A DNA stretch of 64,000 nucleotides from Bacillus marasmi (GTDB lineage Bacteria; Bacillota; Bacilli; Bacillales; Cytobacillaceae): positions 92,261 to 156,260 of the forward strand of contig NZ_LR656176.1 in assembly GCF_902168435.1 (NCBI RefSeq). The letters are read 5' to 3'. The translations under genes were made by a program, and so were the position numbers. Under the pieces are notes generated by a model. The model was given only the letters and a program-made list of their open reading frames with translations, did not search any database and was not told where the DNA came from. Shown one piece after another: positions 34,412 through 53,277 of this stretch; positions within the stretch are counted from its first letter, which is position 1; each line of letters opens with the position of its first letter.

Positions 34412-34819
34412 TTGGCGACTGAAATTGAAACGATCTATTATTTGGAAAATCCTGAGAAAAACATTGTGAAATTTGCGACAGGCTACCAATTAAGATACGA
34501 CGATATTGTTAAGGATGTTTTTGGTGTCGCATGTTTAAAGGATTTACCTATGATGATTAAGTACAACAAAAGCTTTCAAGAAAGCCTCTGTAAGAGTAAG
34601 GGGATTATCGAAAGCCAAATTACGATGGAAATGGTCGTTCATGTTGCTTCTAAAAAAGAACTGCTGCAGCTGAGAAATGAACTGATTCAAGATCAGCATC
34701 AAAACGACTCTGCTCTGCAGGAAAACATCTCCTGTCCTTTTGATACTATGATTCGATTACAAGAAGGTATTTTCCAATGGGATCCAACAAGCTCTACCTA
34801 TAATATTGTCAATGCTTAA
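34412..34819 (+). CDS. Conserved-looking protein of unknown function
   Basis: 135 residues, soluble, starting at TTG (MATEIETIYYLENPEKN) with AGGTG 7 bases before. No cofactor motif, signal or membrane segment is visible. A strong bidirectional terminator follows. I do not recognise the family. Codon use and the signals on both sides support a real gene. Confidence 0.65.
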   Translation: MATEIETIYYLENPEKNIVKFATGYQLRYDDIVKDVFGVACLKDLPMMIKYNKSFQESLCKSKGIIESQITMEMVVHVASKKELLQLRNELIQDQHQNDSALQENISCPFDTMIRLQEGIFQWDPTSSTYNIVNA

Positions 34820-34865: not shown

Positions 34866-35609
34866 CTATTCATAGGTAACTTTTACTGTGTAACCTAAGT
34901 TAGCAAAAAACTCTGTTAATACTTTTTCTGCACTTTTTTCTGCTGTCTGCAACAAACCGATGTTTGTTGCTTCCGCTTTTATTTCCTTTTGAGCTACTGA
35001 AGCAAGATCAAAGCCCTCTGACCAGTCGACTTCACTTCGAAATAACCCCTCATCAGAAAACACAATTACTTTGTCCATCTCAATAGCTGGCTCTTGGATT
35101 AATTTTGCATGGGGCAGAATAATTTCAAGTTGTTTCGTCTCTTCATCCACTTTAACTTGATTTGAAGTTATATCCTTTAAATCAACACCAGCCAGGACCG
35201 TAGCCGGTACAATTAATATTAGCTCACGCTTAGTGCCTGGAAAGTTCATCGATATCTCTTTTCCAAAGAACCGATTATCCTCTTGCTCAATTACAACTTT
35301 AATGTGAGCTTTTGCTGTTGCGAGTGTCGCAAGCTCCTGTACTTGTTCAACAAAACTTGTCTTTTCTATTTTGGTATTACCATCTGATAAATACCAAAAT
35401 CCAACAGCTGCGATTAGAACTATAACGATTGATGCAATGATAATTCTTTTACCCCACATATTAATTAATAGTTTTATTAAAGATTGGGATAATACAGTGG
35501 AACTTACATGATTCCTAAGCACAACTGATGCTGCACTTTCTTTTTCGGCTTCTTTTAGTTCGTTCATGATGCTCTCAAGCTGTCGCGTTAAATCCTCTTG
35601 TTTCCCCAT
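34866..35609 (-). CDS. DUF4230 membrane protein
   Basis: 247 residues. An N-terminal cytoplasmic coiled region (1-50) is followed by one membrane helix (about 54-74) and an extracellular DUF4230 domain (about 85-247) with FVEQVQELATLATAKAHIKVV. The domain's function is unknown. It stands alone, convergent with the previous gene. Confidence 0.75.
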   Translation of the reverse strand: MGKQEDLTRQLESIMNELKEAEKESAASVVLRNHVSSTVLSQSLIKLLINMWGKRIIIASIVIVLIAAVGFWYLSDGNTKIEKTSFVEQVQELATLATAKAHIKVVIEQEDNRFFGKEISMNFPGTKRELILIVPATVLAGVDLKDITSNQVKVDEETKQLEIILPHAKLIQEPAIEMDKVIVFSDEGLFRSEVDWSEGFDLASVAQKEIKAEATNIGLLQTAEKSAEKVLTEFFANLGYTVKVTYE

Positions 35610-36293
35610 CTACTTCACTTCCCTTTTTGCTCATATCTAACTAGAAGTATTTTAAAATATTAAAATAAGAAATTACTATTTATTAAACCTTATTTTAACA
35701 TAATTTACGACAGAGTTCGACACAACTTACACGCATATTATCCACTATTTCACTTTATCATTTGTACATTTAACAATACTATTTTTGTGTAATTATGCAC
35801 GCAAACGCACGCATCAATTCCCAATTATTTGGATAAGAACCGAAATTCGGGCATGAGAAGTGATATTCCCCAGAGAATATAGGGTATAAACATTATTCCT
35901 CACTAATTGAGTCATATACTCCTAACTTTCCCGATAACCCTTGATATGATTTCTGAACATGTTACGATAAAATGAGAACACCATACGAACACACTCGGAA
36001 GAGATTACATATTTCTAAAGACGACTTAATGATATAGACAACATATCATCACCCTCACAATGAAACCAATAGAAGCCAAAACATTATTATCTTCAATATG
36101 TGCTTGACATCTACTACAATTGCTAACTAAACCTGTTAACCCGTGAGTTCCAACATTTAAACATAACGGAACGGAATCATCGTAAACCTTATATTCGGTG
36201 GTTAGTCACACTTGTCATAATCTGAATTTTCAAATCTACTAATTTTTCAGTTTTTTACCTTTTGTCTGGTATAGCTTGAAAGGAGGTGAGTTT
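35610..36293 (+). other. Long leader/intergenic region upstream of the proline symporter
   Basis: No gene found. The left part (to about 35840) is AT-rich. Bases 35850-36010 are a second copy of the promoter region of the proline biosynthesis pair (see the repeat entry). The remaining 280 bases before the small accessory gene show no clear terminator or known riboswitch. Confidence 0.6.
35850..36010 (+). repeat. Copy A of the duplicated proline promoter region
   Basis: Matches 48241-48413. Over the first 121 bases I count 8 mismatches by hand alignment, and the match continues with a small gap to GAGATTACAT, where copy B has GAGATTGCATG (the proH start). It contains TTGATA (35941-35946), 16 bases, TACGAT (35963-35968), a plausible sigma-A promoter identical in both copies. 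Confidence 0.85.
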
Positions 36294-36416
36294 ATGGAAT
36301 TTAGCATCCCTACCGCTACTTGGTTATGGATTTTAACACCAATGCCAATGTTAATTATCTTATCAATCATTACCTATTTTAAAGAAAAGGAGAGAGATCA
36401 CTATGACGGCCTTTAA
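36294..36416 (+). CDS. Small single-TM protein, likely symporter accessory subunit
   Basis: 40 residues, MEFSIPTATWLWILTPMPML at the start, one hydrophobic helix (about 8-28) and a charged tail KEKERDHYDGL. It has a perfect AAAGGAGGTGAG ribosome site. Its end overlaps the symporter's start by 14 bases, so the two are translationally coupled. Small one-helix partners of sodium:solute symporters are known in Bacillaceae; this fits that group by position and shape. It is too short for routine gene calling. Confidence 0.8.
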   Translation: MEFSIPTATWLWILTPMPMLIILSIITYFKEKERDHYDGL

Positions 36417-37875
36417 TTCAGCGACTCTTATTTCAATCACAATTTACCTAATTGGTATGTTAATTATCGGCATCGTTGCTGCCAGAATGACTAAAGATTT
36501 GAATGATTATATCCTGGGTGGGAGGCGCCTTAGTGCTGGAGTAGCTGCTTTAAGTGCTGGATCTTCAGACATGAGCGGTTGGCTAATGCTAGGATTACCT
36601 GGTGCGGTTTATGTAAGTGGTCTAGGATCCATTTGGTTACCGATTGGCTTAGCAATTGGTGCCTACATCAATTGGCAATTTATTGCAAAACCATTTCGAA
36701 TTTACAGTGAACTGGCAAATAACTCAATTACTGTTCCTGAATATTTTGAAAATCGATTCCACGATCAATCAAAACTACTCCGGGTTGTATCTGCGATTGT
36801 CATCCTGATATTTTTTACCTTTTACACATCAGCAAGTTTAGTTGGTGGTGCTGTTCTACTCGAGAATTCATTTAATGTAGATTATACTTTAGCACTTTGG
36901 ATTGGGGCAGCTGTGATATTATCTTATACGCTTTTTGGTGGTTTTCTTGCTGCAAGTTGGACAGATTTTATCCAAGGGATATTAATGTTTTTAGCGCTAG
37001 TAATCATTCCAATCGTTGCCATTACTCAGCTTGGTGGTTGGAATAAGATGGTTCAAAAAATTGGAAACATTGATACATCATTCCTTAATGTGTACTCAGG
37101 AGCAACACTAATAGGAGTAATCTCTTTATTAGCTTGGGGCCTTGGATATTTTGGGCAACCACACATCATCGTACGCTTTATGGGCATCAAATCTACAAGT
37201 GAAATTCCAAAAGCAAGACTTATTGGTATGGTCTGGATGATTATTTCCCTTTTTGGAGCAATATTTGTAGGATTTGCAGGAATCGCCCATTTTTCTGAAT
37301 CTCCCTTAGAAAATTCCGAAACAGTTTTTATCATGTTTTCTCAAGTATTATTTAATCCATGGATAGCAGGGTTTTTACTTGCAGCCATTCTCTCAGCAAT
37401 TATGAGTACAGTAGATTCTCAATTACTAGTATCTTCAAGTGCCTTAGCACAGGATTTCTATAAGGCACTCTTCCGAAGAAATGCTTCTAAAAAAGAAGAA
37501 ATGATTGTTGGCAGAATGGCTGTTCTCGGTATCGCATTGGTTGCGATTCTCCTCGGATATAATCCAAATAGTAAAGTTTTAGAGCTAGTGGGTTATGCTT
37601 GGGCTGGTTTCGGTGCAGCATTTGGACCAGTCATCATTTTAAGCCTATTCTGGAAAAGGATGACAAGAAATGGTGCATTTGCAGGTATTATTACCGGAGC
37701 TTTAACTGTAATAATATGGGGTAACATAAATGGGGGTATTTTTGATTTATACGAGCTCGCACCAGGTTTCTTATTTAGCTGCATTGCTGTTATTATCACT
37801 AGCAGGCTTGATAATGTCCCTTCAAAAGAAATACAGGATGAATTTACAACATATAAAACAACTTTGAGAGGCTAA
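36403..37875 (+). CDS. putP: Sodium/proline symporter (PutP/OpuE type)
   Basis: 490 residues with about 13 membrane helices. SSS-family marks are LNDYILGGRRLSAGVAALSAGSSDMSGWLMLGLPGA near the start, FYTSASLVGGA, and GLGYFGQPHIIVRFMGI. Ser-rich SSDMSGW contributes to the Na+ and proline sites in PutP. It imports proline with Na+, as nutrient (PutP) or osmoprotectant (OpuE); sequence alone does not separate these. Sharing a promoter region with proline synthesis genes favours the osmoprotectant role. It is coupled to a 40-residue partner gene. Confidence 0.9.
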   Translation: MTAFNSATLISITIYLIGMLIIGIVAARMTKDLNDYILGGRRLSAGVAALSAGSSDMSGWLMLGLPGAVYVSGLGSIWLPIGLAIGAYINWQFIAKPFRIYSELANNSITVPEYFENRFHDQSKLLRVVSAIVILIFFTFYTSASLVGGAVLLENSFNVDYTLALWIGAAVILSYTLFGGFLAASWTDFIQGILMFLALVIIPIVAITQLGGWNKMVQKIGNIDTSFLNVYSGATLIGVISLLAWGLGYFGQPHIIVRFMGIKSTSEIPKARLIGMVWMIISLFGAIFVGFAGIAHFSESPLENSETVFIMFSQVLFNPWIAGFLLAAILSAIMSTVDSQLLVSSSALAQDFYKALFRRNASKKEEMIVGRMAVLGIALVAILLGYNPNSKVLELVGYAWAGFGAAFGPVIILSLFWKRMTRNGAFAGIITGALTVIIWGNINGGIFDLYELAPGFLFSCIAVIITSRLDNVPSKEIQDEFTTYKTTLRG

Positions 37876-37895
37876 TTAGTAGAATGATTTATCAA

Positions 37896-37942
37896 AAAAG
37901 AGCAGGAGAGATGCCGTAATTCACGCATCCCTTCTGCTCTTT
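37896..37942 (+). terminator. Terminator after the symporter gene
   Basis: AAAGAGCAG..ATGC pairs with GCAT..CTGCTCTTT. Confidence 0.85.
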
Positions 37943-38002
37943 ATATTTGATTTAATTGTTTATCCTACACTTAGTATAATTTTGGAAAATTCGAATGACA
38001 GC

Positions 38003-38836
38003 TTATGCACCAAGTACATAGAATACGTAACGACTCATTCCTTCAGCTATCGCGAAGACTAATATCGCAGCATAAAGCATTGCATAATTAGTTTTTGGCA
38101 TTGATTTGACTGATAAATAACCAATCGCTGCAAGACCGGCTAATTCTATAATCCAGCGAATACCAATCATTGTTGAATATGATTCTAGTTTCATAGCAGC
38201 CGTTGACCCGTCAATCATTTCTACCTCTGGTAAATACCCAGCAAACATTGCTGAACCTGCCACTTGAATAGCAATACCAATGATTCCAAAGGCAAATGCC
38301 CATTTGATAATCTTTTGTGCTTTCTCATCTTTTACTGTAGCCGTGAGTAATCCAGCACCAAGTACTGGACCTAGTGAAAATGTTGTCCCGAAGAAGACTA
38401 AATACGTATTAAGATGATCCCAGCCATTTACACGAGTTACTGCATACGCACTTGCCATACAATAAATCGTCACTAAACCAACTATTCCAGTTACAAGAAG
38501 AAGAACCGGGTTCAATTTTTTATTTATTAATACTAATCCAGCCATTACACAAACTAAGGCAATAAAAACTCCTGTAAAGACGATTTCATTACTCATCCAA
38601 GACCGTCCGAAGCCTTTAAGAGTGTTTATCGCACTCATTGGGCTACCAAGATGGAAGAACGATCCAATCAATCCTATAATTGATAGTATGGCAATCACTA
38701 ATATTGGTAACTTCATAACCTTTACCGTATCCTTGCCACTTTTCGCCAGACTACCCTGTATAAACGATAAAAATAATATACCTCCTACTGAAGCAGGAAT
38801 TGCAACAGTAAAAATTAATAACGGCCATTCATGCAT
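38003..38836 (-). CDS. dmsC: DMSO-reductase-like membrane anchor (DmsC family)
   Basis: 277 residues with about eight membrane helices, opening MHEWPLLIFTVAIPASVGGILF. DmsC anchors the catalytic and ferredoxin subunits to the membrane and passes electrons from quinol. It is the last gene of the operon. The ribosome site is AGGAGGG. The gap to dmsB is short. Confidence 0.88.
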   Translation of the reverse strand: MHEWPLLIFTVAIPASVGGILFLSFIQGSLAKSGKDTVKVMKLPILVIAILSIIGLIGSFFHLGSPMSAINTLKGFGRSWMSNEIVFTGVFIALVCVMAGLVLINKKLNPVLLLVTGIVGLVTIYCMASAYAVTRVNGWDHLNTYLVFFGTTFSLGPVLGAGLLTATVKDEKAQKIIKWAFAFGIIGIAIQVAGSAMFAGYLPEVEMIDGSTAAMKLESYSTMIGIRWIIELAGLAAIGYLSVKSMPKTNYAMLYAAILVFAIAEGMSRYVFYVLGA

Positions 38837-38860
38837 AAATGATCCCTCCTGCTATAGGCT

Positions 38861-39397
38861 TTATTGTCCTGCAATTACTAAATTTGGTTTTGTGATAGAT
38901 GAGCTAGGCACACCTTTTATATCAGCATTGTTACCATATTTTTTTCGTAATTCATCGATTGGTCCAAACTCGATTGCTCTCATGATGCATGAAGATACAC
39001 ATACTGGATCCTCTCCATTTTCACGCAAATCCAAACAAGTATCACACTTAGTCATCTTCCCAGCTTCTTCATTATATTGTGGTGCACCATATGGACAATT
39101 CCACTGACAATATTTACAGCCTGCACATTTATCCTCATCCACTAAAACCACTCCATCTTCAGAGCGCTTGAACATTGCCCCTGTTGGACAACCCTGAACA
39201 CATCCAGGATCATCACAATGATTACAAGATATTGACACATGCCATATTGATGGTTTAGGGTAAGAGCCTTCAGAAAAATCATAGACTCTTCTGAAGTTCC
39301 TTCCTACTTCTAAATCGCTTTTATCCTTACATGCAATAGTACAGGTTTTACAGCCGATACATTCTGCAACATTTATATAAAATCCCATTTGCGCCAT
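38861..39397 (-). CDS. dmsB: Four-cluster ferredoxin subunit (DmsB family)
   Basis: 178 residues with four Cys clusters: CIGCKTCTIACKDK, CNHCDDPGCVQGCP, CAGCKYCQWNCPYGAP and CDTC...CVSSC. That is four [4Fe-4S] sites, the electron wire between anchor and catalytic subunit. It lacks a signal peptide, as usual, being carried along with the Tat-exported partner. It lies between dmsA and dmsC with short gaps. Confidence 0.94.
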   Translation of the reverse strand: MAQMGFYINVAECIGCKTCTIACKDKSDLEVGRNFRRVYDFSEGSYPKPSIWHVSISCNHCDDPGCVQGCPTGAMFKRSEDGVVLVDEDKCAGCKYCQWNCPYGAPQYNEEAGKMTKCDTCLDLRENGEDPVCVSSCIMRAIEFGPIDELRKKYGNNADIKGVPSSSITKPNLVIAGQ

Positions 39398-39414
39398 TTA
39401 GTAACAACCTCCTT

Positions 39415-41991
39415 CTATTTATAATCAATCACTCGTTGCGGCCATTTAACATCTTCCTCAAGAGGATTACCTGTCCATTTTTCCACATTACATCGAGCAA
39501 GGTTAAAACCTGATGATCCTAGACCCTTTGGAATGTGCGGAACAAATAAATTATCGGCACCAGCACGGTCAATTCCGGTTTTTTCATCAATATCAATCCA
39601 TGCTCCGTGAGGAAGACCAATTACACCAGGCATAATGGTTTCACATACAAGTGCAGGTCGTAATGATTTTCCGAATTCATTGGAAATCAGTACTGTATCT
39701 CCGTCCTTGATGCCAATTTCCTTTGCGTCTTTGCTATTCAAATAAACCGGATTCGGCCATGCTTCCCTAAGCTGCGGGATATTATCAAATACACTATGTG
39801 CACGTCTCAAGTAATGTGGATTAATAATTTGATATGGAAACTTTCCTTTTTTCTTTGTTTTCCAATCTTTAAACGTATCCTCATATCCATGAACTTTTGG
39901 CTCATATTTTGGAATTGGTGCTATTTCTGAATAGGCCTTTTTAGATAGTTCGTTGATTGCCTTACAGTAGATTTCAAACTTTCCACTTTCACTGGAGACT
40001 GGGTTTGCAACTGGATCTTCAATAAAATCTTGATAGGCAATAAACCCAAAATTATCTCCTTGCTTTCGAGGAACCTGATATAGGCCTTTTTCAATGAATT
40101 CTTTTAATGGGATACGTCCCTGCTGCGGTGTTCCTTCGACGCCCATTTCTTTTATGTCCTGAGCCGTAATTGTACATAACGGTTCAAAATCCACACCGTT
40201 TTCTGTAACAACTTTACTACCTGCTAATTGATTAAAATATTGTTGTTTTTCGGAATATGGGAAAACATCTTTTGGATTTTTTCCAAGCTTTTCTAAAAGT
40301 CCCTCAGCAATCATTTGATCGGATTTTGACTCATATAAAGGATCGATAATTTGCGACCAAGTGATTAAGATTTCACGATTCCCACCTTTTACTGCACCTG
40401 GTGTTTCCCATTGTGTTGTTACCGGTAAGACAATATCAGAGTATTTAGCATTTGTTGTTAAGCAATAGGCATTTGTTACAATAAACTCCACTTTTCGATG
40501 CGCTTCGATTCCTTTTGCAATATTACTTCTCGTTTGCAGCGTATTATTATAATTGTGATAAATAAATTGAATATTAGCCTTTCTTTCACCTTCGTAACGT
40601 TGCAGGAACTTTCCATCCAGAACAGCATCCCAAATTTCATTCTCGTTGATCATATTTGTAACTGGATTTTTTACCTTTGGTGTTCCTGCAGCACCTGCCT
40701 TTAGAAGCATAGGTCCCATGTTACCTGCATATTCCCAACAACTTACACCCGTCATATTTCCTGAACTTCCCATATGTCCTGTCATCATTCCAAGTGCTGA
40801 AAACGCTTGTACCCAGCCTTCGCCATTGCTGATACGTGCAGGTGACCATCCAGTTAGTAAAGAAACCCGATCTGTTCCACCTATTTCACGAGCAAGCTCA
40901 CGAATTTTATTGGCAGATATTCCGCAAATTTCTGATGCCCATTCAGGTGTTTTTGGTTGACCGTCATAGGTTCCTAAAATATAATCCTTTAAGTTTTCTT
41001 TTGGATCCGCACCTTCTGGCATATGATCAGCATCGAAACCAATTGTATATTTGTTTAAGAAATCCCATTTTACTAGTTGATTAGTTGGGCTATCCTCATC
41101 TAGAAGTGTGTACATCATCCCAAACGCTAATGCATCGTCTGTTCCCGGGCGAACTGGAACCCAATCAGCATCAAATACATTGGCAGATTCAGAGTACATT
41201 GGGTCAATGACGATGAAACGAGCACCTGCTTTTTTCGCTTGTAAATAGTTATAGGTTACGCTTCCCATCGTACTCCAGGCTGGATTCGCTCCCCATAGGA
41301 CAATCAATTGCGAATTTCTTAAATCTAAGCGATCATTAATACCGTTTGCTAATAAACCTTCACCGACGCCCATGTTTTCCCAAATCCAGCGCCAGGCTCC
41401 CCATGATGAGCTACCATATACTGAGCTGTATCCACCCATAGTTGCCATTACGTTCGTAATATTGACATCACCGCCGGTAACCATGATTGACTCATTGCCA
41501 TATTTCCCACTAATGCGTTTTGTTTCAGATGCGATTATTTCGAATGCTTCATCCCAGCTTATTCGAACCCACTGGTCTTTTCCGCGAAGTTCCTTCTTTC
41601 CACCACCAGGTGCCCAATTTTTTCGTTTCATCGGATATCTTAGACGATCAGCACTAAACACTTGCTTCCGTTGAGAACGACCTCTTAAGCATCCACGTTG
41701 CTGTGGAAAATCAGGTGTATCCTCGTGAGTATCATCTGTTTTTTGACGAATCACAACACCATCTTTAACAAGTACTTTGTTTAAACAGCGGCTTCCGCAG
41801 TTATGCCAGCATGCAGCAGCTTTCCATACGCCTTCAGCTGATGCATCTTCAATCCCTGCAGTAGTTTCAGCTTTCGCAATCAAGCTTCGCCCGACTGGAA
41901 TTGCTGCAGTAGCAGCAACTGCTGAAGTCCATCCAATAAACGATCTTCTCGTAGTTTTGAAGTCTTGAATTTTCTTTATTAGATCGATCAT
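39415..41991 (-). CDS. dmsA: Molybdopterin oxidoreductase, DMSO-reductase-like catalytic subunit
   Basis: 858 residues. A Tat signal (TTRRSFIGW..., about 13-40) sends the folded enzyme outside. The [4Fe-4S] motif is CWHNCGSRC...RGC (about 61-100), followed by the molybdo-bis-MGD fold: LWGANPAW, FIVIDPMYSES, VPVRPGTDDALAFGM, and the C-terminal molydop-binding domain. The family reduces S- or N-oxides, and possibly other oxyanions; DMSO versus other acceptors cannot be decided. It is part of a five-gene operon with its own chaperone. Confidence 0.92.
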   Translation of the reverse strand: MIDLIKKIQDFKTTRRSFIGWTSAVAATAAIPVGRSLIAKAETTAGIEDASAEGVWKAAACWHNCGSRCLNKVLVKDGVVIRQKTDDTHEDTPDFPQQRGCLRGRSQRKQVFSADRLRYPMKRKNWAPGGGKKELRGKDQWVRISWDEAFEIIASETKRISGKYGNESIMVTGGDVNITNVMATMGGYSSVYGSSSWGAWRWIWENMGVGEGLLANGINDRLDLRNSQLIVLWGANPAWSTMGSVTYNYLQAKKAGARFIVIDPMYSESANVFDADWVPVRPGTDDALAFGMMYTLLDEDSPTNQLVKWDFLNKYTIGFDADHMPEGADPKENLKDYILGTYDGQPKTPEWASEICGISANKIRELAREIGGTDRVSLLTGWSPARISNGEGWVQAFSALGMMTGHMGSSGNMTGVSCWEYAGNMGPMLLKAGAAGTPKVKNPVTNMINENEIWDAVLDGKFLQRYEGERKANIQFIYHNYNNTLQTRSNIAKGIEAHRKVEFIVTNAYCLTTNAKYSDIVLPVTTQWETPGAVKGGNREILITWSQIIDPLYESKSDQMIAEGLLEKLGKNPKDVFPYSEKQQYFNQLAGSKVVTENGVDFEPLCTITAQDIKEMGVEGTPQQGRIPLKEFIEKGLYQVPRKQGDNFGFIAYQDFIEDPVANPVSSESGKFEIYCKAINELSKKAYSEIAPIPKYEPKVHGYEDTFKDWKTKKKGKFPYQIINPHYLRRAHSVFDNIPQLREAWPNPVYLNSKDAKEIGIKDGDTVLISNEFGKSLRPALVCETIMPGVIGLPHGAWIDIDEKTGIDRAGADNLFVPHIPKGLGSSGFNLARCNVEKWTGNPLEEDVKWPQRVIDYK

Positions 41992-42009
41992 GATAACCCT
42001 CCTAGTTTG

Positions 42010-42732
42010 CTATTTTTGAAATATTTCTATTTTCAACAGTTCTTCAAGAACTTTTGAATCAATTAATAAGAAATGTTTTAGAATTATAGCCATTCCCTTA
42101 AAAAAATCTGTTTCAGCATGCTCACAAACATTATCAGAAAAATGAGGTGCGAATTTTAGGAGATGCATATTTAAAAATGAGTGCTGTTCCTTCATAAGAT
42201 AAATCATTTCCGCAATAGAATAATCATGTTGCTGCTCACACGATTCGATACAAAGATGATTAAGCTGATACATGAAGTCTAGCTCTAGACCAATATGATC
42301 TTCAGCCTCAATATTAAAATGGGATGTTCGTAATCGATATTTTTCGTAAAGTTTTCGGATATCCATTGTTGTTTTTTGAAAAAGTAATTTGTCCTTTCGA
42401 ACATAAATCGATTCCCATGGCGAAGCGAGTAGCTCAAACGGACCGACAAACATTTTTGTATAATCCCAATGAAGATCTTCAAAATGCCCCCGATTATGGA
42501 TTACATCGTGATGTTTAAAGTATTCCTTTATCTCATTAACTCCTTGTGATAGTTCAAAAGAATCCTCTTGAAAAGGGAATAATTCAATCATGTTTTCTTG
42601 GATAAATGGTTTCAAATATATTTGAGATGGTTCCTCAATGAAAAATCTTCTTAATATGTCGTAAGCAAAATCTCTTGCATATAAAATATTTAGTACATCC
42701 TCGCTTGCGAGTCTTTGTTTAATTGCTTCCAT
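42010..42732 (-). CDS. TorD/DmsD-type molybdoenzyme chaperone
   Basis: 240 residues, all helical. The family's signature region is the ...HWDYTKMFVGPFELLASPWESIYVRKD stretch (about 110-137), matching the TorD family Y..LF.GP....P..S.Y pattern. It binds the Tat signal of the catalytic subunit encoded just downstream and holds it until the cofactor is inserted. The ATG at 42732 follows GGGGAG. Cytoplasmic. Confidence 0.88.
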   Translation of the reverse strand: MEAIKQRLASEDVLNILYARDFAYDILRRFFIEEPSQIYLKPFIQENMIELFPFQEDSFELSQGVNEIKEYFKHHDVIHNRGHFEDLHWDYTKMFVGPFELLASPWESIYVRKDKLLFQKTTMDIRKLYEKYRLRTSHFNIEAEDHIGLELDFMYQLNHLCIESCEQQHDYSIAEMIYLMKEQHSFLNMHLLKFAPHFSDNVCEHAETDFFKGMAIILKHFLLIDSKVLEELLKIEIFQK

Positions 42733-42756
42733 GTTTCTCCCCACTTTCTTGGTGAC

Positions 42757-44091
42757 TTAAATTAAATCTAGTTGAAATTCCTTAGCAGTTACCCAATCCA
42801 GTTTAACTTCACGAATAAGTTGTTCATTTCCATCCAATTCAACTACATTAGAAGATATTACGAGCTCGATATTTTTATTTTTTAGTAAACATATATGTTT
42901 AATCGGAAATTGCAAATAGTGGTGCTCATGATTGAGTGTAAAAGGGATACAATGCTTTTCCATCACCTTTTGCACTTTATATATATCGCTTCCAAAGGCT
43001 TTAGCTGTTTTAAAATAATAGTCCTTTGCTGAAAAATAATAGGTCTCATTTAAAATCTGATCTTGATTTTGCTGATAGATTTGACCCGTAAATTTATTCT
43101 CTAGTGAGCAATAATGAACTCCAAGCTGTAGCTGATTTTCTAGTGCAAATTCAACAAGTTCGAGACAGAGCTCTTGGCTACCTTCTACAGCTAATCCGCC
43201 TGCGTACCAGAAGTTATAATAAACATCAAAAGGTGGGTTTTTTAGTGCAAAGCCGCGTTCTCTAAACGCCTGAGCATTTTCTAACGGAAAACAAAATTCC
43301 AATAGATTAATTCCAAATATTTGTAGTTTCTCTAATTCTAATAATAGCGTCTTCATTTCTGCTCCAGTACCTGGAATGACTGGCATTTCGACTAAAACAT
43401 CCTCAATGTATTGCTTCGCTAAAGCGATTTTTCCGAGTATATGATTTCTTTTCTGTGAAGAATCCTCGAGTTTAATGCTAAAGCGAATTTCATTTAGCCC
43501 AGTCTCCTTTAGGCGTTGCAGTAATTCTTCTGTTAACAAATCACCAGCAGTATACAATCTTGTATGGGTTTGTGGAACTAGCACATTAGCCAGCTGAAAA
43601 AAGCTAATGGTTTCCTCAGCATGGAGGAGCGGTTCGCCTCCAGTCAAAGCTAGGTGGGTAAGTTTAACTCCCTGTTGGACTAATTTAGTAAGCTCACCGT
43701 TGACATTATTATGATTCCTTACATGGAAGGAATAATGATCTTGATTTTTATTAAAACAAAAGTAGCAATCACGATGGCATTTTAATGATACAAATGATGT
43801 ATAACTACCAGTTCCCGTCTGACAGGCATCACAAGCCGAAGATACTCTTTTATTCGAGCGAATGCTTTTATTGTTGTTGCTAAATATGGCTCCTTGCTTA
43901 ATTAGCTTGTCAAGCTGGTCAGTTGACTTCTTAGCTTCGTCATAATCTTTTCCTAATGGTAATCCGTATTCCTGAATTTGTTTTTTTGTATTCTCTTCGA
44001 TATTTTTATAGATAGCTGCGTATTGAAGTAGATTATGATTCTTTGGTTTGTGGTCGATGTTTTTTATGAGCGCATTCATTCCGGATAGCAC
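42757..44091 (-). CDS. Radical SAM protein heading the DMSO-reductase-like operon
   Basis: 444 residues. The radical SAM cluster motif is CHRDCYFC (Cys 105, 109, 112), with TGGEPLLH as the SAM-binding GGE motif. An extra CDAC pair lies at 87-90, and HYCSLENK near the end resembles a group related to pyruvate formate-lyase activases (COG2108-like). It is the first gene of the operon and precedes the chaperone by 24 bases. Roles such as modification of an enzyme subunit or cofactor are possible; none is shown. The start is GTG at 44091 with a very close AAGGG, and the ATG at 44079 is an alternative. Confidence 0.8.
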   Translation of the reverse strand: MLSGMNALIKNIDHKPKNHNLLQYAAIYKNIEENTKKQIQEYGLPLGKDYDEAKKSTDQLDKLIKQGAIFSNNNKSIRSNKRVSSACDACQTGTGSYTSFVSLKCHRDCYFCFNKNQDHYSFHVRNHNNVNGELTKLVQQGVKLTHLALTGGEPLLHAEETISFFQLANVLVPQTHTRLYTAGDLLTEELLQRLKETGLNEIRFSIKLEDSSQKRNHILGKIALAKQYIEDVLVEMPVIPGTGAEMKTLLLELEKLQIFGINLLEFCFPLENAQAFRERGFALKNPPFDVYYNFWYAGGLAVEGSQELCLELVEFALENQLQLGVHYCSLENKFTGQIYQQNQDQILNETYYFSAKDYYFKTAKAFGSDIYKVQKVMEKHCIPFTLNHEHHYLQFPIKHICLLKNKNIELVISSNVVELDGNEQLIREVKLDWVTAKEFQLDLI

Positions 44092-44358
44092 ATCCCTTTC
44101 GAAACTATTTCTCTTAAGCTGCTTATATAATCAGTCACTTTCATCGCGAAAAGGTTGAAGTAATTTTATGAATTCATTATATTGTTTTGAGGTTGTGAAT
44201 AATATGGCCTCAGCAAACGAATATTTGCTTTAGTTTTTGTGCGTGGGAACAAACGGTTTTTACGGTTCTGTGACATTCATTGTTTGCCTTTTAAAGATAC
44301 GTTATGATGAAAGAACTAGTTTTACTATATCTATATAGTAGAAAGGAGACGGGATAAA
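44092..44358. promoter_or_regulatory. Divergent promoter region between the two molybdoenzyme units
   Basis: 267 bases between the start of the radical SAM operon and the PucR-type gene. On the plus strand TTGTTT, 17 bases, TATGAT (near 44280-44308) could drive the regulator, and CTATATCTATATAG near 44326 is a short palindrome before its ribosome site. I find no convincing Fnr box. Confidence 0.4.
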
Positions 44359-45576
44359 ATGGTCGAACAGTATCCGATTCCAGATTATGTTCAAGAATTA
44401 CTAGCTGTGTCTAATCAAGGAGCCCGTTCTATTCTAATTAAGTTATCAAGCCTTTTATCACTTCACGCATATATCACTGACCCTTTATTTCAAATCTCCT
44501 TTTCTTCCGATCATACTTTCTCTGTGGAAGAAGCGAATATAATAGAAATTCAAGATAGGCAAGTTATTAATGGGGCTTCTTTTACTTGTAAAATTTCATT
44601 ACAATCGAAATTCCAACAAGGCTTGGCTTGCCCAATTGTGCACCATGACAATACGATTGGTTACATTATTTTATTAAACAATAAAGATGAAGATATACCC
44701 ATGTATGCCGATTTGTTAAACTTTGTTGCCTCTTTATGCGGTATCCATTTGCAAAAAAGAATTGAAATGATGCAGGAAAAATCAAAGTTTAAAGAAGCAT
44801 TTCTATTCAATCTTTTATTTGGAAATATGAAACAAAAAGAAGAAATCATTGAATACGGAGATATTTGGGGATGGGACTTTCGATTGCCCCATATAGCAGT
44901 CGTTTTTTCGTTATTAGATGCTGATCATTTTATTAATGACCATCAAATGCTGCAAACGATACTCCTTAAGGTTGAAAAAACACTTCTCCAAAAGAACATT
45001 AAACCCATCAGTTTAATCCGTCACAATCAGGTAACCGTCTTACTACCTGTTTCAAACCCAAATTTTGCTTTATTTCGAAAGGATCTTGAGAGTTTATCTA
45101 CAGCGATATTAAATGATACGAGTTCATATATAGGAGACAAACAGCTTGCTTGTGGCTTTGGAAAAGTATATAAAAATCCCACCGAACTATTCCGAAGCTT
45201 TCAGGAAGCCAAAGTTGCCTTTGAACTAGGAATATTAATTAACATTAAGCTACCGTTTTTTTCCGACTTAGGTTTAGAGAGAATTTTATATAAACATGAC
45301 CTCCAAGACTTGAAAGAATACTACGAAAATATTTTAGGTGCCCTACTTGAGTATGACGCAGCAAATGGCACCAATTTTCTAGAAACACTTGAAGCTTTTT
45401 CTTCAAACCAATTTGATATGACAAAAACATCAACTGCTCTTTTTCTACACCGGAATACATTACGTTATCGATTAAAGAAGGTGGAAGAAATATTAAATAT
45501 TAAGCTAGATGACGTTAATAATCGTTTAAATATATCAGCTGCTTTCAAAATCAAACTACTACGAAAACTGACATAA
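44359..45576 (+). CDS. PucR/CdaR-family transcriptional regulator
   Basis: 405 residues. The N-terminal part (about 1-140) looks like a GAF-type sensor, the middle like the CdaR regulator domain, and the C-terminus is the PucR helix-turn-helix: SSNQFDMTKTSTALFLHRNTLRYRLKKVEEILNIKLDD (about 350-387). Regulators of this family usually sense a metabolite and activate the neighbouring catabolic genes. Here the molybdo-oxidoreductase pair follows after 15 bases and the DMSO-reductase-like operon diverges, so it may control either or both. Confidence 0.85.
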   Translation: MVEQYPIPDYVQELLAVSNQGARSILIKLSSLLSLHAYITDPLFQISFSSDHTFSVEEANIIEIQDRQVINGASFTCKISLQSKFQQGLACPIVHHDNTIGYIILLNNKDEDIPMYADLLNFVASLCGIHLQKRIEMMQEKSKFKEAFLFNLLFGNMKQKEEIIEYGDIWGWDFRLPHIAVVFSLLDADHFINDHQMLQTILLKVEKTLLQKNIKPISLIRHNQVTVLLPVSNPNFALFRKDLESLSTAILNDTSSYIGDKQLACGFGKVYKNPTELFRSFQEAKVAFELGILINIKLPFFSDLGLERILYKHDLQDLKEYYENILGALLEYDAANGTNFLETLEAFSSNQFDMTKTSTALFLHRNTLRYRLKKVEEILNIKLDDVNNRLNISAAFKIKLLRKLT

Positions 45577-45591
45577 AAAAGGGTGATTTTG

Positions 45592-47601
45592 ATGAATGAC
45601 GGTATTTTCCGCAATACATGTCCTCGAAACTGCTACGGTACTTGCGCAATCTTGTCTCATGTAAAAGATGGAAAGCTCATTAAGGTGACTGGCGACGCGA
45701 AGCATGGGTACACCAAAGGAAAACTTTGCGCCAAAGGCTATGCCTCCACCCAATTTGTTTACGATTCCAAACGTCTAAGATATCCAATGATTCAAAAAAA
45801 CAGAGGTTCTGGGATTTGGACAAGAATTTCTTGGGATGAAGCCTACACGATTATCGCCAAGAAGATGATTGAGCTTTATGACAGGTATGGTTCAAACCTG
45901 GCTAGTGGCTATAATAAATTTTCCGGAAACATCGGTCTTTTACATTATGCTACAGAAGGAATGTTCAACAGTATTGGTCCGCATACAAAATCAGTCGGTA
46001 ACGTTTGCTCCTTAAGTGGAAAACTCTCGATAAATCAATCCTTTGGGCATAACTTTAGTTCTGTTCCGGAGGATATGGCACACTCAAAATTAATTGTCAT
46101 ATGGGGAGCAAATCCTGCCGTAACCAATGTCCATCAAATGAAGTTTATATACGAAGCCAGAAAAAAGGGCGCAAAGTTTATTGTCATCGATCCATTATTG
46201 ACTGAAACTGCAAAAAAAGCAGACATTTATATTCAAATTAAGCCCGGTAGCGATGCTTGGCTCGCACATGGCGTTGCCAAACTATTAGTTGAAAGCGGAA
46301 ATTACACAAAGGACTCATTACAAACTGATGCCCTTGGTTGGGATGAATATCAATCCTTTTTAGTAGAACAAGTCACTTTATCAGAGGTCTCAGAAATAAC
46401 GGGTGTACCTTATGAAGCAATTACCGAGCTAGCCAAATTATATAAGGAAATTAAACCGGCATGTACTTGGAATGGATTGGGAATTCAACGAACGTTCCAG
46501 GGAAAAGAAAGCATTAGTGCCATCAATAGCCTTGTAGCTATCTCAGGGAATTTATCGATTCAATATGGTGGAATTTATTACATGCATTTTGATGTTGACC
46601 ATTTCCCTTTAAATCTACTCAATCACCGTGGACCAAGTCATCCTACTATTAATTCTTCTCGCGAAATTAATTTAAGTAATTATCCTGAGACTGCATTATC
46701 GCTAGATTCCCCTCCATTGAAATTATTGTGGGTCGCCTCTCGAAATATGATTGTCCAGGACCAAAATCTTAAGGCCTGGGAACAGTTAATGAACCAGCTT
46801 GAATTAATCGTTGTTGTCGATTTATACATGACAAAAACGGCGCAACAAGCTGATATTATATTACCGGCAGCAAGTCATTTCGAAGAGGAAGATTTAAATG
46901 TAGGGTATTGGCATTATTGGTTATCCATCAATGAAAAATCAATATCTCCATTTTATGAAGCAAAGAGTGATCTGCAAATTGCTAGGGAATTAACACGCAA
47001 ATTAAACGATACTCGCAAAGGTTTTTCAAACTTCCCTGCTGAAAAGGAACCACTTGATTGGATAGAAGGTGAATTAACGAGTGAAATAATGGAGATGTAC
47101 TCTATTAAGAGTTACAAGGATTTGCTTAAAGGTCCTCAGAAGAAAAAAGAGATTCATATTCTATCAACTGAACAGCGTAAATACAAGCTTTTTTCACCGT
47201 CAAATTCACAAAATAATGATGGAACATCTCTGATCAATAATGAACCTGATAATATGTACAGATTGCTCTCTCCGCAATCCTTGCTAAAAATTCATTCACA
47301 GTTTGAATCGCTTTCATGGTTAAACACTGGACACACAGAACTGATTATAGAAATTTCCATAGAAGCAGCAACTACCTATAATATTGAAAATCAACAAAAA
47401 ATCGAAGTCTATAATCGTTATGGTGCAATAGTTGGTGTAGCAAAAATAAACCCTTATCTACCAAAGGATATTATTGTTACTAACCAAGGTGGTAAAAATC
47501 CGATTAATCGTTTAGTCGTGCATAAAAGCGATTCAGATTCGAGTACTTTCTTTTATGACAGTATGGTAAAGCTACGGAAATGGAGGGAGGGTTTTGTTTA
47601 A
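45592..47601 (+). CDS. Molybdopterin oxidoreductase without Tat signal
   Basis: 669 residues. The [4Fe-4S] site is CPRNCYGTC...KLCAKG near the start, then LRYPMIQ, WDEAY, IWGANPAVTNVHQ, FIVIDPLLTETA and IKPGSDAWLAHG, with a molydop-binding C-terminal domain. No Tat signal precedes the cluster motif and no membrane anchor gene is near, so it is probably cytoplasmic, using the ferredoxin subunit encoded next. The ATG at 45592 follows AAAGGGTGA. The substrate is unknown. Confidence 0.88.
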   Translation: MNDGIFRNTCPRNCYGTCAILSHVKDGKLIKVTGDAKHGYTKGKLCAKGYASTQFVYDSKRLRYPMIQKNRGSGIWTRISWDEAYTIIAKKMIELYDRYGSNLASGYNKFSGNIGLLHYATEGMFNSIGPHTKSVGNVCSLSGKLSINQSFGHNFSSVPEDMAHSKLIVIWGANPAVTNVHQMKFIYEARKKGAKFIVIDPLLTETAKKADIYIQIKPGSDAWLAHGVAKLLVESGNYTKDSLQTDALGWDEYQSFLVEQVTLSEVSEITGVPYEAITELAKLYKEIKPACTWNGLGIQRTFQGKESISAINSLVAISGNLSIQYGGIYYMHFDVDHFPLNLLNHRGPSHPTINSSREINLSNYPETALSLDSPPLKLLWVASRNMIVQDQNLKAWEQLMNQLELIVVVDLYMTKTAQQADIILPAASHFEEEDLNVGYWHYWLSINEKSISPFYEAKSDLQIARELTRKLNDTRKGFSNFPAEKEPLDWIEGELTSEIMEMYSIKSYKDLLKGPQKKKEIHILSTEQRKYKLFSPSNSQNNDGTSLINNEPDNMYRLLSPQSLLKIHSQFESLSWLNTGHTELIIEISIEAATTYNIENQQKIEVYNRYGAIVGVAKINPYLPKDIIVTNQGGKNPINRLVVHKSDSDSSTFFYDSMVKLRKWREGFV

Positions 47602-48133
47602 ACAAGTGGGTTTTTGCTTTAACGCAGATGACTGTATTAACTGTAAGGCTTGTGAAATTGCCTGTAAAAATGAAAATCAAACACCTGATTACATTAATTG
47701 GCGAAAGGTAAAACAAATTGATTTCGAACTGGCGCTTTCCATATCCTGTAATCATTGTGAAAGTCCAGAGTGTTTTCGTGTTTGCCCCGAACGTGCGTTT
47801 ACGAAGCGCGAAGATGGAATTGTCCTAATTGATGACAACCTATGTACTGGCTGTGGTTTGTGTGTAAGTGCTTGTCCTTACCAAGCACCGCAATTTAATC
47901 CTGAAACAAAAAAGGTTAGTAAATGCCAAATGTGCTATCCAAGACAGGATGCTGGCCTCCCTCCTGCTTGTGTCGAGGCTTGCACCACAGGAGCATTAAA
48001 GCTTATTAATCTAAATAAGTTCTCAAACAAAGCTGTTGTTCGCTCTTTACCTGGATTCCCAGATATCCATATTACATCACCATCAATCGTCTTTTACCCC
48101 GTAAAACCACGAAAACGATATTTTATTAAATAA
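47594..48133 (+). CDS. Four-cluster ferredoxin subunit of the second molybdoenzyme
   Basis: 179 residues with cysteine clusters CINCKACEIACKNE, CNHCESPECFRVCP, CTGCGLCVSACPYQAP and CQMCYPRQDAGLPPACVEAC. It starts at TTG and overlaps the molybdoenzyme stop by 8 bases, behind GGAGGGAGGG. It should accept or donate electrons for that enzyme. The final basic tail is unlike DmsB of the first unit. Confidence 0.9.
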   Translation: MFKQVGFCFNADDCINCKACEIACKNENQTPDYINWRKVKQIDFELALSISCNHCESPECFRVCPERAFTKREDGIVLIDDNLCTGCGLCVSACPYQAPQFNPETKKVSKCQMCYPRQDAGLPPACVEACTTGALKLINLNKFSNKAVVRSLPGFPDIHITSPSIVFYPVKPRKRYFIK

Positions 48134-48139
48134 ACCGCA

Positions 48140-48174
48140 GAGCAGCATCATACAAATGACAGCTGCTCTTTTTT
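48140..48174 (+). terminator. Terminator of the PucR/molybdoenzyme unit
   Basis: GAGCAGC pairs with GCTGCTC, followed by TTTTTT. Confidence 0.88.
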
Positions 48175-48202
48175 CGACAAATTTCGGGCGGTGACAGGCA
48201 CC
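48170..48202 (+). repeat. Dispersed repeat, copy 1
   Basis: Starts TTTTTCGACAAATTTC and ends GGTGACAGGCACC. The same 33 bases occur at 51749-51781 in the same orientation. Here it abuts a terminator T run. It fits a short interspersed repeat seen in Bacillus genomes (recollection, not a search). Confidence 0.8.
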
Positions 48203-48240
48203 CATTCAATTCTCAAATTTTGGGATTAGAGCTTATTTCT

Positions 48241-48413
48241 GGGCATGAGAAGGGATAATCCCCACAGAATATAGGGTATGAACATTATTGCTCACTAATT
48301 GAGTCATATACTCCCCACTTTCCCGATAACCCTTGATATGATTTCAGAACATGTTACGATATATTCGTTAATAAAACGAGAACACAATACGAACACATTG
48401 GGAGAGATTGCAT
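48241..48413 (+). repeat. Copy B of the duplicated proline promoter region
   Basis: The intact promoter of the proline pair: TTGATA (48333-48338), 16 bases, TACGAT (48355-48360), then GAGAACAC and the ribosome site GGGAGAGA before the ATG at 48412. It matches copy A at 35850-36010, apart from about 12 extra bases after the -10 box. Confidence 0.88.
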
Positions 48414-49281
48414 GTTACAAAAGAAAAAAATATTATTTTTAGGGGCCGGCTCAATGGCTGAAGCAATGATTTCTGGAATCGTAAAGGAAGGCGTAATTCC
48501 ACCAAATCAGATTACCGTTACAAATCAAAGTAACATTGACCGCTTAAAACAACTCGAAAATAGATATCAAATTACTGGGGTAAAAAAAGACGAACTTAAA
48601 TTTACAGAATACGATCTCATTATCCTCGCAATGAAACCAAAAGATGCCCAAACCTCATTACTTACTATAAGTGATAGACTACAACATCATCAGCTGATTA
48701 TTTCCGTATTAGCTGGAGTTTCCACCCAATTTATGGAACAGCATCTACCTTCAGAACAACAAGTCATCCGAGTAATGCCCAATACTTCAAGTATGATTGG
48801 GGAATCCGCAACAGGAATTTGCTCTGGAACATGGACCACACGCGAAAATATGAATCTTACTATTGAACTTTTAAAGTGTATAGGTGAAGTTTACGAGATA
48901 CAAGAAGAAAGCATGGATATTTTCACTGGATTAGCTGGTAGTGGTCCAGCCTATATTTATTACTTGATGGAACACATGGAAAAGGAAGGGAAATCTGCTG
49001 GATTATCAGAGAGTTTAACACGCCAAATTATTGCTCAAACCATCAGTGGTGCAGCGAAAATGGTTAAAGTCGCAACAAATTCCCCCGCCGAACTCCGAAT
49101 ACGTGTTACTTCCCCTAACGGAACAACTGCTGCTGGATTAGAAGCACTTGAAACATTTGGTGGAGGAATTGCTATATCTCAAGCCGTTAAAATGGCAACT
49201 AGTCGCTCTCTTGAAATCACTCAACAGCTCAAACAAGATACTGAAAAAACTGCAATCATGAGCACAGGGGTGATGAAATGA
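48412..49281 (+). CDS. proH: Pyrroline-5-carboxylate reductase (ProH type)
   Basis: Reduces pyrroline-5-carboxylate to proline with NAD(P)H, the last step of proline synthesis. It has 289 residues. The Rossmann motif is ILFLGAGSMAEAMISGI, with VIRVMPNTSSMIGE and the C-terminal SGPAYIYYLMEHMEKEG and RVTSPNGTTAAGLEAL. The gene order (reductase then glutamate kinase) matches the osmotic-stress proHJ operon of B. subtilis rather than the anabolic proBA. The ATG overlaps none upstream; its stop overlaps the kinase start by 4 bases (ATGA). Confidence 0.93.
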   Translation: MLQKKKILFLGAGSMAEAMISGIVKEGVIPPNQITVTNQSNIDRLKQLENRYQITGVKKDELKFTEYDLIILAMKPKDAQTSLLTISDRLQHHQLIISVLAGVSTQFMEQHLPSEQQVIRVMPNTSSMIGESATGICSGTWTTRENMNLTIELLKCIGEVYEIQEESMDIFTGLAGSGPAYIYYLMEHMEKEGKSAGLSESLTRQIIAQTISGAAKMVKVATNSPAELRIRVTSPNGTTAAGLEALETFGGGIAISQAVKMATSRSLEITQQLKQDTEKTAIMSTGVMK

Positions 49282-50126
49282 AACTGAAAAAGGAAAAACA
49301 GCGGGTTATTATCAAAATTGGTAGCAGTTCGTTGACAAGCAGTCACGGGGAAATCAGCCGTAAAAAGCTTGAAAAACTTGTTTCTGATATTGTTATATTA
49401 AAGGATTTAGGTCACGAGGTCGTACTGGTTTCTTCAGGGGCTGTCGCTTGCGGATATCGAAAGCTTGGCTGTCTCGAACGCCCGCACACATTACCAGAGG
49501 TTCAGGCAGCAGCATCAATAGGTCAAGGACTTTTAATGGAAGCATACTCCGAACTATTTTTATCCCACGGCTACGTTGCTGGACAAATATTAATTACTAG
49601 AACAGACCTTCTTGATGAAGAAAGAAAGACAAACGTTCATAATACTTTAAATGTTTTATTGGATCGAGGAATTATTCCAATTGTAAATGAAAATGATACA
49701 GTGACGATTGATGATTTAAAATTCGGAGATAATGACACTCTTTCGGCAAAAGTCGCAACCTTAATTAACGCAAATTCATTAATTATTTTATCCGACATAG
49801 ATGGTTTATTTAATGCAGACCCTACAAGAAATCCTAATGCTTTGTTATTAAAAAGCGTTACGAAAATTACGCCTGAAATCGAAGCGTGTGCTGGAAGCGC
49901 GGGAACCAGCATCGGAACTGGTGGGATGAAATCGAAAATTGAAGCAGTAAAAATTGCAATGGCTTCAGGGATTTCAACATTTTTAGGAAACGCCAAACAC
50001 CAAAATATTATCGTAGATGCAGTTTATGGTAATGCTAAAGGTACTTATTTTTCAAAAGAAAGTTTATCTACAAGTTTTACCAGTTATAAAAAGGAGAAGC
50101 GGTGTCTGGTAACAATGAACAATTAG
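49278..50126 (+). CDS. proJ: Glutamate 5-kinase without PUA domain (ProJ type)
   Basis: Phosphorylates glutamate, the first step of proline synthesis. The kinase domain is complete: VIIKIGSSSLTS, LVSSGAVACGY, ENDTVTIDDLKFGDNDTLSA, LSDIDGLFNADP and GTGGMKSKIEA. It has 282 residues, whereas the common form is about 370 with a C-terminal PUA domain. Only about 100 bases separate the stop from the next gene, so the PUA was lost or never present rather than frameshifted off. proA is absent here and must be supplied elsewhere. Confidence 0.9.
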   Translation: MKLKKEKQRVIIKIGSSSLTSSHGEISRKKLEKLVSDIVILKDLGHEVVLVSSGAVACGYRKLGCLERPHTLPEVQAAASIGQGLLMEAYSELFLSHGYVAGQILITRTDLLDEERKTNVHNTLNVLLDRGIIPIVNENDTVTIDDLKFGDNDTLSAKVATLINANSLIILSDIDGLFNADPTRNPNALLLKSVTKITPEIEACAGSAGTSIGTGGMKSKIEAVKIAMASGISTFLGNAKHQNIIVDAVYGNAKGTYFSKESLSTSFTSYKKEKRCLVTMNN

Positions 50127-50174
50127 GATATATAAAAAAGTACGTTAAGAACAGCACCAAACGCATTTCTTTAA

Positions 50175-50224: not shown

Positions 50225-50225
50225 G

Positions 50226-51738: not shown

Positions 51739-53277
51739 TTATGCTCTATTTTTCGACAAATTTCGGGCGGTGACAGGCACCATATCTTTATCTTCTGCTT
51801 GTTTTGCACGTTTGATGAAGAAAGCGAGGACGAGGGATACTAATGCGATGAAGGTTGCGACAAAGAAGGAATCGTTTATTCCTTCAAGCATCGCCTTCAT
51901 GGCAATTTGTTCTTTTAGTTGAGCCAATAACTCTGGTGTTATTTGCCCTGCATCTGCACTTTGTGGAGCATTTCGCATCATTTCTTCACCAATTTCTTTA
52001 GCATGAGTTTCTGTACGATTTGTCATAACTGTCACTAGCAATGCAGTACCAATCGCACCTGAAACTTGATTCAAGGTATTATTCATCGCTGTACCATGCG
52101 GATATAGGCGTTTTGGTAACTGATTAAGCCCATTAGTCGAAACAGGCATCATAACCATAGACATTCCTAGCATCCTTACTGCATTTAAACCCATTAAATA
52201 ATAATAGCCTGTATCTAGTGCTAATTTACTAAATAAGTAAGTCGTAATCACGGTAATGGAAAGACCCAGAATGGCCAAAATACGTCCACCAAATTGATCA
52301 AATAGTTTTCCAGTTAATGGAGACATCAACGCCATTAATATTGCACCAGGTAGTAGCATGAGCCCTGCATCCATCGGTGAAATTCCCCGAATGGTTTGCA
52401 CATAAATCGGAATTAGCAACATACCCGAAAACATCGACATGTTTAATACGATGGAAATGGCAGATGCTAACGAGAACATTGGATATTTAAACACTGAAAA
52501 ATTCAACATTGGGTCATCCTGTTTAATTTGACGCAGAATAAATGTAACAAGAGCTACAACTCCTGCGATAATGGTTCCATATACAATTGGACTATCCCAG
52601 CCCTTGGTTCCAGCAGAACTAAAGCCGTAGAGAATTCCGCCAAACCCTGCACTTGATAGGATTAGGGAAATAAAATCAAGCTTAATATCCACTTTCTCTT
52701 TTTTGTCCTTAAGTAGGAAGAAGCCGATTAACAACACTAAAATGGCAATTGGAGTAACAAAATGAAACAGCATTCTCCAATCATAATGCTCTATAATCCA
52801 TCCAGACAATGTAGGGCCGATCGCTGGTGCTGCCATTAATATTAATCCAAAAACACCCATCGCTAATCCTCTTTTTTCTATTGGAAAGCTAACGAGCATT
52901 ACATTCATTAACAGTGGCATTAAAATCGCAGAGCCCGATGCTTGAAGCATTCGTCCTGCCAGTAGAACCGGAAACACATCTGCAACACCAGAAATAAGGG
53001 TTCCAATTGTAAATAATCCCATCGCGGCTAAATATAAATGACGAACTGAGTACTTCTGGATTAAAAAAGCGGTAGTTGGTATCAAAACGCCATTCACCAG
53101 CATGAAACCCGTTGTAAGCCATTGAACAGTTGAAGCCTCAATCTTTAAATCTGCCATAATGGATGGCAAGGCAATATTTAATAAGGTATTATTTAAAAAT
53201 GCAATAAACGCACCAATCATTAAGACTGCAATCAAACCATAGGGTGGTCGTTCTGACTTTTTCATTGCATCAACCAT
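51739..53277 (-). CDS. MFS multidrug exporter, DHA2 (14-TM, EmrB/QacA) type
   Basis: 512 residues with about fourteen helices. Features are NNTLLNIALPSIMADLKIEASTVQWLTTGFML (motif D1 region), GRMLQASGSAILMPLLMNVM and APAIGPTLSGWI (motif C, antiporter). It pumps drugs out with protons. The last 14 residues (DMVPVTARNLSKNR) are encoded by the dispersed repeat at 51749-51781, so the natural C-terminus was replaced. A TetR gene diverges 183 bases upstream with an operator between, so induction by the pump's substrate is likely. Confidence 0.92.
   Translation of the reverse strand: MVDAMKKSERPPYGLIAVLMIGAFIAFLNNTLLNIALPSIMADLKIEASTVQWLTTGFMLVNGVLIPTTAFLIQKYSVRHLYLAAMGLFTIGTLISGVADVFPVLLAGRMLQASGSAILMPLLMNVMLVSFPIEKRGLAMGVFGLILMAAPAIGPTLSGWIIEHYDWRMLFHFVTPIAILVLLIGFFLLKDKKEKVDIKLDFISLILSSAGFGGILYGFSSAGTKGWDSPIVYGTIIAGVVALVTFILRQIKQDDPMLNFSVFKYPMFSLASAISIVLNMSMFSGMLLIPIYVQTIRGISPMDAGLMLLPGAILMALMSPLTGKLFDQFGGRILAILGLSITVITTYLFSKLALDTGYYYLMGLNAVRMLGMSMVMMPVSTNGLNQLPKRLYPHGTAMNNTLNQVSGAIGTALLVTVMTNRTETHAKEIGEEMMRNAPQSADAGQITPELLAQLKEQIAMKAMLEGINDSFFVATFIALVSLVLAFFIKRAKQAEDKDMVPVTARNLSKNRA
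51749..51781 (+). repeat. Dispersed repeat, copy 2, inside the DHA2 pump gene
   Basis: Identical to 48170-48202. On the minus strand it is translated in frame as the end of the pump protein. Confidence 0.8.

Follow-up and report, generated by a model that had tools for sequence, protein, structure and literature searches.

Upstream of proH, B. subtilis proHJ and B. licheniformis proHJAA are reported to have a SigA-type promoter that is induced osmotically and comprises -35, -16 and -10 elements, and in B. licheniformis a 130-bp fragment is reported to give osmotically controlled reporter activity (PMC9437891, PMC3858371, PMC9245794). The same proH-proJ order and promoter type, as far as those accounts go, are found in a 64,000-nucleotide stretch of Bacillus marasmi DNA (contig NZ_LR656176.1, positions 92,261 to 156,260), the whole of which is called the window here. 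Unlike the two operons as described, the window carries the promoter region twice, as copy A ahead of putP, a gene for a sodium/proline symporter, and as copy B ahead of proHJ. The same descriptions place no symporter inside the B. subtilis and B. licheniformis operons and treat opuE as a separate gene, whereas relatives of the window carry putP behind proHJ(A).

The opuE gene of B. subtilis, which has two promoters, encodes a proline symporter that is under osmotic control and belongs to the family of the window PutP. Halobacillus halophilus reportedly has a proline synthesis operon with proA, proHJA, that serves osmoadaptation; the likeness to the operons considered here lies in this being a proline synthesis operon that includes proA. 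We know of no promoter sequence shared by opuE and proHJ, the B. subtilis sequences not having been compared here, and a literature search, confined to titles and the openings of abstracts and incomplete in its coverage, returned no description of a proHJ-putP operon or of a promoter shared by proHJ and a symporter. The promoter and the enzymes of the window are of a known kind; the variant would lie in the joining of synthesis and uptake genes in one operon, in its split and in the keeping of the promoter at both places.

The comparisons reported below make it likely that the window holds a proline operon that has been split, copy A having kept the promoter and putP and copy B the promoter and proHJ. 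The features concerned are the following.

35807..35898, plus strand: upstream part of copy A, like copy B; weakly conserved in relatives
35899..35968, plus strand: promoter core of copy A, with the CTCACTAATTG block, TTGATA (-35) and a 16-base spacer with TG before TACGAT (-10)
35969..36011, plus strand: former proH 5' leader and start codon in copy A, with a 12-base deletion, GAACA and ATACGAACA kept, and ATG changed to ATA
36017..36119, plus strand: proH coding remnant; about 170 bases of proH are gone before it and the frame is broken
36294..36416, plus strand: membrane-type open reading frame (ORF) of 40 amino acids with a GGAGG ribosome site, overlapping the putP start
36403..37875, plus strand: putP/opuE-type sodium/proline symporter gene (TIGR02121, equivalog, 706.4 bits, cut-off 515.5)
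48170..48202, plus strand: dispersed repeat of 33 bases, bordering copy B on the left
48291..48360, plus strand: promoter core of copy B
48412..49281, plus strand: proH, pyrroline-5-carboxylate reductase (TIGR00112, 259.1 bits, cut-off 196.75)
49278..50126, plus strand: proJ, glutamate 5-kinase of 282 amino acids, short form (TIGR01027, 316.7 bits, cut-off 186)
51749..51781, plus strand: the 33-base repeat again, in identical form, bordering the proHJ-MATE block on the right and lying within the 3' end of an MFS gene

Compared without gaps, copy A (35850-35967) and copy B (48242-48359) differ at 8 of 118 bases, which bears out the 8 differences in about 120 bases counted in an earlier, sequence-only reading of this DNA. 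That reading had placed the start of copy B at 48241, which is off by one (90 mismatches from there), and the likeness that it described holds from 48242. With gaps allowed, 35850-36010 and 48242-48413 agree at 85% over 173 columns (E 2.5e-53 in a search of the 64-kb window), and the next-best match to the region in the window has an E value of 1.2. The promoter TTGATA-N16-TACGAT is present in both copies, as had been stated; its sites at 35941 and 48333 are the only two on the plus strand of the window, and the minus strand has none. The differences between A and B are unevenly spread, with 11 mismatches in 59 columns of the upstream part (35840-35898 compared), 3 in 70 in the core, 5 in 39 plus 17 gap columns in the leader and 29 in 98 plus 8 gap columns in the proH remnant. 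No T-box, riboswitch or other Rfam RNA reached the gathering score in 30000-64000.

The copy B element was then sought at the DNA level in 193 genomes of the family, its own included, with up to four first-look candidates scored per genome. It was found in 27 genomes belonging to 5 of the 25 genera, namely its own and 26 relatives, and each of these relatives has a single match, which stands ahead of proH, followed by proJ, in 26 of 26. This search of relatives had been proposed in the sequence-only reading, together with the possibility of a mobile or repetitive sequence lying at many unrelated genes; the single matches, all ahead of proHJ, are not of that kind. In its own genome, the copy B region has two matches on the same contig, and with two copies here and one match per relative (among the up to four candidates scored in each) a mobile or repetitive source was rejected. 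A profile of the 27 proHJ copies recovers copy A (E 7.6e-19) together with three other loci (E 5e-9 to 1.5e-17); two of these three lie outside the family and have proH, proJ and proA behind the element. Blocks conserved at 90% or more include an ACTA located some 35 bases upstream of the -35, CCTTGA, the TG before the -10, and ATACGAAC in the leader. Copy A matches 43 of the 47 columns that reach this level in the 27 proHJ copies, the other four falling inside its 12-base deletion. The SigA-type -35 and TG-extended -10, conserved with other proHJ promoters, are found in full in copy B and, apart from that deletion, in copy A, where no intact proH follows. These comparisons support the view that the duplicated sequence is a conserved proHJ promoter element.

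At the third of these loci, in a genome of the same family (G085, L122, 2335-2448, minus strand), the element is followed directly by proJ-proA and the stretch examined contains no proH; this is perhaps another case of the element outliving proH.

Because copy A runs from the promoter into a decayed proH fragment, we infer that proH formerly stood ahead of the window symporter. The sequence 36017-36108 matches 48586-48679, which lies inside proH, at 74% over 94 columns (blastn, E 3e-11); local alignment extends the remnant to about 36119, and the proH genes of several relatives match it directly, for example that of the nearest relative, G004, at 78% over 54 bases. The likeness had earlier been taken to end at the lost start codon. 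The change of ATG to ATA (36009-36011) is real, but the likeness resumes within proH. After the fragment no proJ remnant is recognisable in copy A, and the layout continues from the promoter and the dead piece of proH to the small ORF and putP.

The order that such a remnant would imply exists in relatives. Forty relatives with a PutP at 77% identity or more were counted; among named relatives, species of Neobacillus, Cytobacillus, Niallia and Bacillus have a similar symporter. In 13 of the 40, the nearest included, the first gene upstream of putP on its strand is proJ or proA; these neighbourhoods run through proH, proJ, in some cases proA, the small ORF and putP, and in each of the 13 the element precedes proH. 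At the remaining putP loci, for each of which about 1.5 kb or more upstream was examined, the element has no match below E 1 in 27 of 27 (best E 1.4). The element is thereby ruled out as a general feature of putP, and its presence at putP therefore marks descent from the operon. In G004, the operon is bordered on the proH side by orthologues of window genes 29463-31346 and 34412-34819, and on the putP side by orthologues of window genes 51739-53277, 53311-54354 and 54474-55262; in the window the first set lies to the left of copy A and the second to the right of copy B. Of three tests of a split operon, two gave a positive answer, a remnant of a lost gene being present in copy A (proH) and the unsplit order with shared flanks in a relative (G004, with differences in the flanks that are given below); the third, for a remnant of putP in copy B, gave a negative one.

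To assess whether the promoter of copy A is still used, the differences between A and B were assigned to one copy or the other by the majority among 15 relatives, at least five of which had to agree. None of the 70 core positions was assigned a change in A, and 3 were assigned to B. In the leader, the assignment was 5 to A and 0 to B, in the remnant 14 of 98 to A, 9 to B and 6 unassigned, and in the upstream part 4 to A, 5 to B and 2 unassigned. The A-assigned changes separate the core from the remnant (Fisher p 4e-4) and from the leader (p 0.005); mismatch counts vary with the alignment, a pairwise alignment of the remnant giving 23 of 98. A further test used only columns at which the relatives and B show conservation, a gap in A being scored as a change, and gave 0/43 in the core versus 11/54 in the remnant at 70% conservation (p 0.001) and 0/33 versus 9/47 at 85% (p 0.009). 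At all three core differences A holds the majority base of the relatives, which makes a recent overwriting by B unlikely. Since the proH fragment shows 14 A-side changes in 98 positions and the core none in 70, promoter A is probably still in use; its core has probably been under selection since proH died at copy A, and the simplest cause would be that it drives putP. No terminator-like site was found between copy A and putP, and copy A is the lone plus-strand promoter-like site before the small ORF in a scan of weak power (5 sites found, 4.5 expected). A transcript from copy A would be expected to reach putP.

The split may have come about as follows. An ancestral operon, with the order osmotic-type promoter, proH, proJ, (proA), small ORF and putP, would have been duplicated or partly copied in the window lineage, and complementary loss would then have left split operon copies. 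Losses from copy A would have taken proJ and most of proH, leaving the promoter, the small ORF and putP, and copy B would have kept the promoter and proHJ without putP, while a dimethyl sulfoxide (DMSO)-reductase-like block and a MATE-type gene would have come to share the interval. At present, the DMSO-reductase-like block, copy B and the MATE-type gene are what lies between putP and the MFS gene. We infer the order and the mechanism of the duplication; as both copies sit between the genes that flank one operon in G004, duplication in place is suggested, with proHJ then lost from one copy and putP from the other.

Several observations weigh against a split operon with a promoter A in use. The other 27 of the 40 relatives lack the operon order, with no proH, proJ or proA upstream of putP in the stretches examined. 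G004 lacks window genes 31556-34206 and the DUF4230 gene (34866-35609) at this place and has another gene there. The trees leave the window ProH and ProJ on long branches with no supported partners, and the window PutP joins G004 at only 84/77; arrival of copy B from a near relative is possible. With regard to promoter A, the comparison of A-assigned changes between the core and the upstream part (0/70 versus 4/59) gives a p value of only 0.041, and at invariant (100%) columns the core and the remnant (0/30 versus 5/32) give p 0.053. The 12-base deletion, which lies immediately 3' of the -10 hexamer, and the 5 changes in 39 leader positions could weaken this promoter. Finally, no remnant of putP or of the small ORF was found behind proJ in copy B (48000-52000). 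Such a remnant need not survive, but copy B may therefore be a copy of promoter and proHJ alone, or an imported block.

This last version, in which recombination at the 33-base repeats brought in the block of promoter, proHJ and MATE gene from a related genome, or moved it, and deletion of the resident proHJ followed, would leave the operon split all the same, and we regard it as rather unlikely though well worth keeping in mind. In its favour are the identical repeats at both edges of the block (48170-48202 and 51749-51781), the start of the A/B similarity at the edge of the left repeat, and the many genome sites of the repeat core. On the other hand, the core of B is closer to that of A (3/70) than to that of any of the 26 relatives (least 0.21, in G004), and the trees show no foreign placement. 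Recombination at the 33-base repeats is a likely route.

As to the repeat itself, 73 sites of its 26-base core, 17 forward and 56 reverse, occur in the genome when up to three mismatches are allowed, and many of these are clustered in few contigs and one-sided there; the reversed-pattern control gave 0.

It is improbable that the promoter and gene fragment of copy A are left over as a dead relic and that putP is driven by some other, unrecognised promoter. The deletion beside the -10, the lost start codon and changed ribosome site, and the roughly 300 bases of leader ahead of the small ORF would all suit a relic. However, the core has gone without A-side changes while the adjoining remnant decayed, the losses of start codon and ribosome site concern proH only, and the weak scan placed no further promoter-like site on the plus strand ahead of the small ORF. 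Very doubtful, finally, is the account given in the sequence-only reading, that the proHJ promoter was copied before the symporter without an earlier link to proHJ, which fits the 27 relatives that have neither proHJ or proA upstream of putP nor the element there, but not a copied stretch that includes proH coding sequence from about codon 59, nor a nearest relative with putP right behind proHJ and flanking genes shared.

Returning to the split operon, the proH remnant in copy A and the proHJ-(proA)-putP order in 13 of 40 relatives mean that putP would already have stood behind this promoter, proHJ being lost from between, and the term "recruited" finds no support. The idea of one promoter region in front of both uptake and synthesis survives in so far as the region is duplicated before putP and proHJ and the core of A is kept. 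As a conserved proHJ element was duplicated and its core preserved in A, shared osmotic control of putP and proHJ is plausible; by analogy with the proHJ promoters of B. subtilis and B. licheniformis, both promoters may respond to osmolarity. We put forward only tentatively, as a possibility somewhat short of an even chance, that synthesis and import of proline make up a single salt-responsive regulon in this group, working through a module of about 70 bases plus leader (TCACTA block, -35, TG-extended -10 and leader GAACA motifs) that selection would have kept at both halves after the break, with an undescribed membrane protein of about 28-50 residues as an obligate partner of the symporter.

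The small ORF in front of putP is itself widespread, since all 40 relatives (40/40) have an ORF of about 28-50 residues just before or overlapping putP. It follows the pattern ATWxWLLIPMPLLIVLSxITYF, with one hydrophobic stretch by eye, and minority letters number 146, 56 and 290 at codon positions 1, 2 and 3 (39 of 41 sequences were caught by the pattern). The motif was not found at seven more distant putP genes (58-64% identity, from 6 genomes), for one of which only 406 bases upstream were available. No Pfam or NCBIfam family was found for the ORF and its relatives (8 proteins searched in NCBIfam, 5 in Pfam), and two NCBIfam matches were at chance level (E 0.027 and 0.1). It is possible that this ORF encodes an undescribed subunit of the symporter.

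On the side of copy B, proH was named from its position beside proJ; its product scores 284.2 against the ProI-named model NF005813, under the cut-off of 404. The end branches of the window proteins are long, 0.59 for ProH (median 0.18) and 0.45 for ProJ (median 0.095), and on this ground the window proHJ copy seems to have evolved fast. With 282 amino acids, the window ProJ is without the C-terminal extension that makes the G004 protein 374 amino acids long, and ORFs of 266-280 amino acids are present in some relatives too. In each of three genomes of the same genus (G001-G003) a single glutamate kinase matches at E 1e-60 or better, with 46-48% identity and of the housekeeping type. An apparent stop inside the second, housekeeping proB was rejected, the gene being an intact ORF of 363 amino acids. 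The interval 38003-48133 between putP and proHJ holds two molybdopterin-oxidoreductase-like gene sets on opposite strands (this name and the DMSO-reductase-like one were given by eye from translations, without a family search), and for the large subunit at 39415-41991 the four other genomes of the genus gave no match at E 1e-100.

In the SNAP hypothesis of gene-order change, a duplicated segment is said to lose different genes from each copy, which leaves a new order and remnants. The window case differs in that the unit is a single operon and the promoter is kept in both copies. With regard to how osmotic stress activates SigA-type proHJ promoters, the alignment of 27 proHJ copies shows which promoter bases are kept, and copy A adds a natural test, in which the served gene is gone, the core stands without A-side substitutions, and the ribosome site and start codon have decayed; the core, including its upstream block, would therefore be the part that matters. 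The locus also appears to show that an operon can be split and still retain common control, and it draws attention to a small protein that may be part of the symporter.

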